Assembly (NCBI RefSeq): GCF_900129195.1
Contig: NZ_FQUY01000014.1
Span: 1-64,000, forward strand
From: Desulforamulus putei DSM 12395
GTDB lineage: Bacteria; Bacillota; Desulfotomaculia; Desulfotomaculales; Desulfotomaculaceae
Direction: 5' to 3'
Length of the DNA stretch: 64,000 nucleotides
Shown here: positions 44,128-49,321 of the stretch, one piece after another
How positions within the stretch are numbered: position 1 is the first letter of the stretch
Layout: each line of letters opens with the position of its first letter
Made by a program: the position numbers and the translations under genes
The notes under the pieces: model-generated
The model's input: the letters and a program-made list of their open reading frames with translations, nothing else
Told to the model about the DNA's origin: nothing
The model's database searches: none

Positions 44128-44336
44128 GTGCGCCCGGCATGGGCGTTATCTATAGGGTGAAAGTCCCGAACGGTGAAGGTAGCAGTAACCGTAGCTCAAG
44201 ACAAGGGTGTTCATCGCGAGGTGGAATCTGAAGGAAGTCGGCGGCAAACCTCCGGCCGAGGACCACGAACCCCAGGTGAGGCTAACAGCAGCTGGATGAG
44301 CTTGCATAACAAAGCAAAGTCCTTGCATCCCTTCGT
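44128..44336 (+). mobile_element. Group II intron, 5' ribozyme fragment
   Basis: Begins GTGCGCCCGGCATGGGCG with the standard GUGCG intron start, continues CTATAGGGTGAAAGTCCCGA and GGAATCTGAAGGAAGTCGGC, then CGGCAAACCTCCGG and GAGGACCACGAACCCCAGG: the domain I landmarks of bacterial group II introns. Domains IV-VI and the 3' splice site are missing, so it cannot splice. Its position immediately after a transcription terminator fits the insertion habit of class C introns. Confidence 0.85.
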
Positions 44337-44446
44337 CCATTCCTCAAAGCCCACTGGCCTGAAATTAGAGAACAGCTCCTAAACGGAACCTACCAGCCTA
44401 AACCAATAAGGAAATTAACACCTAATGGAATGCCCAAAAAATTCCA
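44337..44446 (+). pseudogene. Group II intron reverse transcriptase fragment (LtrA-like)
   Basis: Reads PFLKAHWPEIREQLLNGTYQ then PKPIRKLTPNGMPKKF, matching the N-terminal region of intron-encoded reverse transcriptases. The start of the gene and everything after about 35 residues are lost. Confidence 0.8.
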
Positions 44447-45641: not shown

Positions 45642-45856
45642 GGCAAATCCACCACCATTGTTGTTTTAAATGCTGCATTAATGGCAAAGGCTTTGGTAAG
45701 TCGGCAGCGGTATTTACGCCAAAGGACAAGGCTAATGATCAATAGAATATTACCAATGGTAAACCATTCTGTTCGATAGTATATTTTAACAATTTATAAC
45801 ACATATATACATTTACTGAAGTAGTCTTATTGCGGGCACATCCTACTGCCACAATA

Positions 45857-45893
45857 AAAAACCCCGGGTTATGGCTAAATATACCCGGGTTTT
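45857..45893 (-). terminator. Terminator of the Sec-like tRNA transcript
   Basis: AAAACCCGGGT/ACCCGGGGTTTT-type stem with one bulge; on the minus strand it ends in GGGGTTTTTTATTG. Confidence 0.75.
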
Positions 45894-45936
45894 GTTGACT
45901 GTTATTGCAGTTGTTACTGTTGGGGCTGCTATGTTT

Positions 45937-45974
45937 TAAGAGTCGCCTGCTCTACCAAGTGTGCTAATGAACCA
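45937..45974 (-). pseudogene. tRNA-Lys(CTT)-like 5' half
   Basis: On the minus strand TTAGCACACTTGGTAGAGCA is a near-standard D-arm, followed by GGCGACTCTTAA, the 5' anticodon arm of a tRNA-Lys(CTT). The 3' half (anticodon 3' stem, T-arm, acceptor) is absent. It lies 11 nt downstream of the Sec-like tRNA and before the shared terminator. Confidence 0.45.
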
Positions 45975-45985
45975 TGATTTGTGTT

Positions 45986-46081
45986 TGGAGGGGAGAAGTC
46001 GGAATCGAACCGGACTCCCACCTGAGCTACAGGCGGGCCAGCGGGTTTGCAGCCCGTGGGGGGACCTTCCCCATTCTCCCC
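45986..46081 (-). tRNA. Selenocysteine-tRNA-like tRNA with cysteine anticodon GCA
   Basis: 96 nt with encoded CCA. The 8-bp acceptor is GGGGAGAA/TTCTCCCC, followed by discriminator U73. D-arm GGGG-AAGGT-CCCC. Anticodon arm CGGG-CTGCAAA-CCCG gives anticodon GCA. A very long variable arm CCCGCCTG-TAGCT-CAGGTGGG (8 bp, one GU). The T-arm is GTC-C-CGG/TTCGATT/CCGAC with one bulged C, so acceptor plus T-stem is 13 bp as in bacterial tRNA-Sec. tRNA-Sec would have anticodon TCA and usually G73; GCA and U73 are cysteine identity features. Probably charged by CysRS, though the long arm could also attract SerRS. Confidence 0.85.
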
Positions 46082-46177
46082 AGGTTATTTTATCATAATG
46101 ATTTGTCATATCACAAATAACTTTTATTTATAAATCTTAAGCAGACTATAACATCTTGTTGTGCCTGGCAAAAATTT

Positions 46178-48358: not shown

Positions 48359-49174
48359 TTACCTTTCTTCATCCTTAAATCGAATCATCGGGCATTTTTT
48401 GCATACATCCATACCGGGGTATTCCTGCCCGCCGGCGCCGATAAAGGATGCGCCGCCGCCGTAATGACGACTTCTCTTTAATAACTGTTTGGCCACGGCT
48501 TCAATTTGGTCTCCGGGGATGAAAACATTGACTTCACCCTTTTCGGTCTTGCCGGAAGTAAAGCTGCCGGCGCACATGGTTTTCATGCCGGCGTTGTGGT
48601 TCAGGTAACAGTCCACGGTACCGCCGCAGACCGCCGAGTTGACAGTATGGGTGGAAGCGACGGTGGGAACTTTGGTCCCTCCGATGTAATCATTCAGGAT
48701 GTGGTAGGCTTGAAAGGGGTTGACGATGAAGAAAACCACATCGGGTTCCACCGGTGTTTTATACAGGGGAGCGGTCATAATGCCCTTCAATTCCCCCAGG
48801 GGTAATTTGGGTTTGGCTTCCAGACATTTTTGGGCCAAATCCCAATCAGTGGTATATTTCAAATGATCCTTAACCTCTTCCTCGGTGGCGGCACGGAAAC
48901 CAAAAACTGTCCGGGCATTATCACAAAGAAGTTTGTCGTCGGTGATTTTTACAATGTAGTTATCCATGCGAGAGGCTAAAACCGCCTGGCAGAAAGTCAT
49001 CTTCGGGCCGGGGATTTTTTCTGCCGCAAGTTTATCAAATTCTTCCTGATCAAAATAAAATTTAACCGCAACCGGGTTGTATTCAAGCTTATAAAGGGCT
49101 GCAAAGGCCCGGTGCATTTCTTCGCAGGTCAGAGATTCTTTATTGGCCAGTTCCGCGACATTAATCAGCAGCAT
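48359..49174 (-). CDS. DUF169-family protein
   Basis: 271 residues from ATG 49174 (GGAGGAG). DUF169 landmarks: NPVAVKFYFDQEEFDKL, KMTFCQAVLASRMDNYIVKI, CDNARTVFGFR, and VFFIVNPFQAYHILNDYIGG, then GGTVDCYLNHNAGMKTMCAG and the C-terminal CKKCPMI. The five to six conserved cysteines suggest a metal or cluster site. Function is not established; the family is frequent in anaerobes with C1 or aromatic metabolism. Confidence 0.9.
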   Translation of the reverse strand: MLLINVAELANKESLTCEEMHRAFAALYKLEYNPVAVKFYFDQEEFDKLAAEKIPGPKMTFCQAVLASRMDNYIVKITDDKLLCDNARTVFGFRAATEEEVKDHLKYTTDWDLAQKCLEAKPKLPLGELKGIMTAPLYKTPVEPDVVFFIVNPFQAYHILNDYIGGTKVPTVASTHTVNSAVCGGTVDCYLNHNAGMKTMCAGSFTSGKTEKGEVNVFIPGDQIEAVAKQLLKRSRHYGGGASFIGAGGQEYPGMDVCKKCPMIRFKDEER

Positions 49175-49321
49175 GATGGCTCCTCCTTGCAATTGATTGT
49201 AAATTACTTATTGATATGTTATCAGATAATAGACAAATGAAATGTGTTCCAGCACACAATTTATTTGTCGGCTTGCTAACGATTATAAGGAGGCCCTTGT
49301 GGTTTCTTGACTTGGACCGGT

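Follow-up and report, generated by a model that had tools for sequence, protein, structure and literature searches.

The 64,000-nt stretch of the Desulforamulus putei DSM 12395 genome that was analyzed here (the window) contains a real tRNA gene that combines a Sec-like body with the anticodon and discriminator base of a cysteine tRNA, and that is a member of a known, partly tested, and uncommon class, selC* tRNA-Cys or tRNA-ReC. With a probability of roughly 0.8, and by analogy with a relative as far as function is concerned, it would serve as a backup tRNA that is charged by CysRS, delivered by SelB, and used to place cysteine where selenocysteine (Sec) is encoded.

Anatomy and Flanks of the tRNA Gene

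The gene is 96 nt long when U73 and CCA are counted (46081..45986, minus strand), and ARAGORN predicted a tRNA-Cys(GCA) at 45990-46081 on the same strand, with the anticodon at tRNA position 32. The 5' part reads 5'-GGGGAGAA U GGGGA AGG UCCCC CC ACGGG CUGCAAA CCCGC UGG and the 3' part CCCGCCUG UAGCU CAGGUGGG A GUC(C)GG UUCGAUU CCGAC UUCUCCCC U CCA. The features of the gene and its flanks are as follows:

45986..46081, minus strand: tRNA-ReC (selC*-type tRNA-Cys) gene, including U73 and the encoded CCA (ARAGORN, sequence, fold, Rfam tRNA-Sec model)
46074..46081, minus strand: 5' side of the acceptor stem, GGGGAGAA, 8 bp with 45990-45997 (sequence; compensatory changes in relatives)
46060..46072, minus strand: D-arm GGGGA-AGG-UCCCC, with a short loop as in tRNA-Sec (fold, relatives)
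46048..46050, minus strand: anticodon GCA in the loop CUGCAAA (ARAGORN)
46017..46037, minus strand: variable arm, 8-bp stem CCCGCCUG/CAGGUGGG and 5-nt loop (fold, relatives)
45998..46015, minus strand: T-arm GUC(C)GG/CCGAC, 5 bp and one bulged C (46012 or 46013, equivalent; fold, relatives)
45990..45997, minus strand: 3' side of the acceptor stem, UUCUCCCC (sequence, relatives)
45986..45989, minus strand: discriminator U73 (45989) and encoded CCA (sequence)
46087..46116, minus strand: promoter-like TTGTGA-18-TAAAAT with TG ahead of the second hexamer (consensus match only)
45936..45956, minus strand: remnant of a tRNA-Lys(CUU) gene (exact match; the gene is intact in L069)
45855..45892, minus strand: putative terminator, a CCCGGG hairpin followed by a T run (recognized visually; the scanner did not list it)

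The preliminary description, which did not state the strand, had listed an 8-bp acceptor, an 8-bp variable arm, a bulged C in the T-stem giving 13 pairs, GCA, U73, and CCA, and all of these were confirmed by the sequence and its fold (-49.1 kcal/mol; z = -2.6 vs. shuffles). The acceptor and T-stem together contain 8+5=13 pairs, and the anticodon stem consists of four Watson-Crick pairs and one A.C mismatch. The 8-bp acceptor, the bulged T-stem, the long variable arm, and U73 with GCA are the features of the selC* class. On the other hand, the gene has neither the usual UCA nor the G73 of tRNA-Sec, and an 8/5 branch with a bulge and a long arm replace the 7/5 branch and short variable loop of canonical tRNA-Cys. 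It scored 46.0 bits against the Rfam tRNA-Sec model (RF01852), whose gathering score is 47, whereas the true selC of the host (C30:58440-58533) scored 70.9 bits. In a scan of the window with the general Rfam tRNA model, it was not listed above the cut-off, indicating that a standard Rfam scan overlooks it.

Relatives (L069 and others), sister genomes among them, have the tRNA-Lys(CUU) gene in intact form shortly downstream of the same tRNA, and in about ten genomes of the host's class a tRNA-Lys gene is found close to the Sec-like tRNA-Cys. No selenium genes were found among the neighbors of the window tRNA-ReC. The gene cysK is divergent and about 0.82 kb away, as the preliminary description had noted (0.8 kb); its value as a functional clue was rejected because cysK occurred within 3 kb in only 3 of the 60 class loci, which makes the distance uninformative. 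Elsewhere in the window, a DUF169 protein is encoded at 48359-49192 (minus), DUF169 being among the selenium-gene associates in PMC5322559; a group II intron D1-D4 match (Rfam RF02001) lies right after groEL at 44210-44383 (plus); and two oppositely oriented tRNA-Val(UAC) genes (1721-1796, minus; 2371-2446, plus) are identical over the printed Rfam matches.

Coexistence with tRNA-Sec and Ordinary tRNA-Cys

The host genome (3.1 Mb, 100% complete) harbored a single copy of the tRNA-ReC gene. It had been proposed that a normal tRNA-Cys and a true selC be sought elsewhere in the genome, and both were found, the former inside a tRNA cluster and the latter as a UCA tRNA-Sec with G73. SelA and SelB (one gene each) were adjacent at C30:39111-42412, and CysRS was encoded by one gene; tRNA-ReC is thus an additional tRNA. 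A search of the host genome for a dedicated SelB* or CysRS* detected none, and no PLSDB match that would point to plasmid spread was obtained for the window tRNA-ReC.

The enzymes SerRS and SelA, as well as SelB, use a long variable arm and a 13-pair branch. Both are present in the window tRNA and would also suit a tRNA-Sec with a cysteine anticodon, which would receive Ser from SerRS and Sec from SelA and then place Sec at chosen Cys codons, a type with a precedent in Aeromonas salmonicida. This reading is very improbable, since the window tRNA carries U73, whereas the host selC has G73, a complete UCA selC is already present, and the relatives conserve the CysRS identity set. The same conserved U73 and GCA leave the earlier suggestion of Ser charging with misreading of UGC/UGU apparently unsupported at the sequence level.

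Family of Relatives

A DNA search identified relatives in 62 of the 113 genomes of the host's class, several of which contained two or three copies, and further families contained more divergent copies. When named genomes were scanned with a pattern, at least about 64 genuine members were obtained from Bacillota, Nitrospirota, Actinomycetota, and Chloroflexota, after about 16 of the 80 matches listed had been dropped as chance matches without an 8-bp acceptor. The family set comprised 103 distinct sequences with U73 and either GCA or ACA. Five T-stem pairs could be formed in all 103; this required a bulge of one nucleotide in 63 and no bulge in 40. The acceptor pairs changed on both sides together (GC/AT/CG/TA), as counted on anchored arms; positions 1-7 were paired in 97-100% of sequences and position 8 in 89%, vs. 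64-74% when the register was slid by one. The frequency of relatives in the class and this covariation indicate that the window gene is not a chance structure, and the five T-stem pairs combined with the covarying acceptor indicate that the 13-pair branch holds family-wide. Nearly all relatives kept GCA, U73, and CCA, and the long-arm form was also kept. Two findings that would have spoken against a Sec-like minor tRNA, namely that this was the only tRNA-Cys and that relatives were short-armed, were therefore not obtained; its identification as a minor tRNA-Cys mimicking tRNA-Sec was right, and the class has been published.

The anticodon ACA, very unusual for bacteria, was observed in three of the distinct relatives; the loci with ACA were L084, L115, and L163, the latter two of which probably represent one gene. 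Position 33, otherwise nearly always U, differed in six distinct relatives (C33 in L081, L105, L116, L260, and L274; A33 in L111).

Association with Sec Users and Selenium Genes

Carriers were almost all Sec users. In a 398-genome Bacillota sample, SelA was present in 20/20 GCA/U73 carriers vs. 257/398 genomes overall, the 20 carriers spanning 12 families and the counts ignoring kinship; SelA was likewise found in 46 of the 48 carrier genomes that were reached through named loci, a count that also ignores kinship. These data bear on whether the gene encodes a redundant cysteine isoacceptor that is charged by CysRS, delivered by EF-Tu, and engaged in general UGC/UGU reading, its Sec-like shape being a relic. 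Such a role would fit GCA, U73, the intact cloverleaf, and the nearby tRNA-Lys gene in about ten class genomes, a setting like that of ordinary tRNA genes. However, it is unlikely given the near-restriction of carriers to SelA genomes, the normal tRNA-Cys already in the host, the compensatory changes that keep the 8-bp acceptor, the retained Sec-like arms, and the absence of EF-Tu use reported for the Desulfotomaculum nigrificans relative.

YedE was located within 1.5 kb of the tRNA in 13 of the 60 class loci, with only one more YedE within the 9-kb flanks. These 13 loci belonged to families f4, f5, and f15, and yedE started just 3' of the tRNA on the same strand, the tRNA lying about 20-60 nt before it in several families. 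The neighbor matched TIGR04112 (476 bits), a putative selenium transporter (L083, L084, L086, L088, L089, L092, L098, L100, L103, L111, L114, L115, and L120), and the tRNA and YedE probably share one transcript in these loci. This position would also suit a non-coding regulatory tRNA-like RNA, such as a decoy for SelB or CysRS or a selenium-operon leader element, as would the incompletely constrained anticodon loop (ACA in three and non-U33 in six distinct relatives). Such a role is extremely improbable, because nearly all copies keep GCA, U73, and CCA, most copies, including that of the window, have no yedE downstream, and translation activity is reported for a relative.

Other selenium genes recurred beside the relatives. 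In L116, SelD was located 77 nt upstream of the tRNA. In seven f16 loci (L085, L104, L109, L110, L113, L119, and L127), the tRNA was directly 3' of SaoC in the SAO (Sec-assisted organometallic) operon, and SaoX came next in the six whose contig continued. Six of the seven had UCA with A73, and L085 had GCA with U73; the f16 copies presumably correspond to the tRNA-ReU described for Pelotomaculum. SaoC at these loci ended in Cys-Cys, not Cys-Sec. In other phyla, YedF, a selenium LysR regulator, SelD, YedE, and SelB recurred. The SelB gene directly followed the tRNA in Nitrospirota L131, L135, L139, and L159, and three Nitrospirota genomes with this arrangement carried two or three SelB genes. 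YedE, YedF, and the LysR subfamily have been put forward as selenium-metabolism candidates in a published study, which counts subunits of 2-hydroxyglutaryl-CoA dehydratase, DUF169, and a transglutaminase among their associates (PMC5322559). Relatives of these associates recurred near Sec-like tRNA-Cys genes, the transglutaminase label (cluster d24) being assigned by eye with no NCBIfam match. In L123 and L124, the tRNA was just downstream of HdrA-like and MvhD/VhuD-like genes, families with selenoprotein members. The repeated selenium-gene neighborhoods and the extra SelB in Nitrospirota may be new.

Proposed Role

The preferred reading joins the anatomy, the coexistence with tRNA-Sec, SelA, SelB, and CysRS, the near-restriction to Sec users, and the selenium neighbors of relatives, which were observed directly here, with the reported behavior of the D. 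nigrificans tRNA. tRNA-ReC would be an extra cysteine tRNA built on a tRNA-Sec body, with U73 and GCA allowing CysRS to charge it with Cys. The 8-bp acceptor and 13-pair acceptor-T branch would direct it to SelB, not EF-Tu, for transport to SECIS-bearing mRNAs, where Cys would be inserted at the Sec UGA codon with the G34-A wobble mismatch tolerated. The outcome would be Cys forms of selenoproteins, probably useful under selenium shortage. By homology, Cys insertion at UGA and delivery by SelB are predicted in the host as in D. nigrificans, and the earlier proposal of Cys at special sites or a Sec/Cys switch agrees with the SelB-dependent insertion published for that relative.

Tentatively, and at less than even odds, tRNA-ReC in several phyla might belong to operons of the selenium regulon, being transcribed together with yedE/yedF, lying close to SelD or the LysR-type selenium regulator, and having its own SelB* in Nitrospirota, with Cys-for-Sec replacement as a regulated response to selenium supply; the ACA and altered-U33 copies may mark specialized readers. 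Such tRNAs represent a natural case in which a single cell reads one codon as either of two amino acids, and the genes for selenium uptake and regulation to which they are linked hint at the conditions under which the switch operates. The linkage also offers a direct test of the role of tRNA-ReC, namely in carriers grown with and without selenium. The gene is ordinary in kind, and the selenium-operon linkage is the point of interest.

Comparison with Known Systems

Bacterial tRNA-Sec (selC, RF01852) shares with the window copy the 8-bp acceptor, the short-loop D-arm, and the long variable arm, but has UCA and G73 instead of GCA and U73, and the window copy scores below the gathering score. The name tRNA-ReC was reportedly coined in a 2018 paper (Vargas-Rodriguez), the UCA form of Pelotomaculum being tRNA-ReU. 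The body of tRNA-ReU is the same as that of the window copy, whereas UCA is combined with A73/G73 in the former and GCA with U73 in the latter. The tRNA-Sec(GCA) of A. salmonicida is also Sec-like with a Cys anticodon; it carries Sec, whereas the window copy has the Cys discriminator U73.

The class was described as selC* tRNA-Cys (Mukai, 2017). A review places it in Firmicutes, Thermodesulfobacteria, Nitrospirae, and Proteobacteria; two orders of delta-proteobacteria are described as having selB*, and one of these also cysS*. Unlike some of these systems, the host lacks selB* and cysS*. The same review gives a T-stem of 4 bp in which A51a is bulged, whereas the window copy has five pairs and a bulged C. 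Another review states that the D. nigrificans selC* tRNA-Cys is carried by SelB, not EF-Tu, and reads the Sec UGA as Cys. This tRNA shares with the window copy the Sec-like body, 8-bp acceptor, bulged T-stem, long variable arm, GCA, and U73, and in anaerobic Firmicutes members of the class likewise coexist with a genuine selC.
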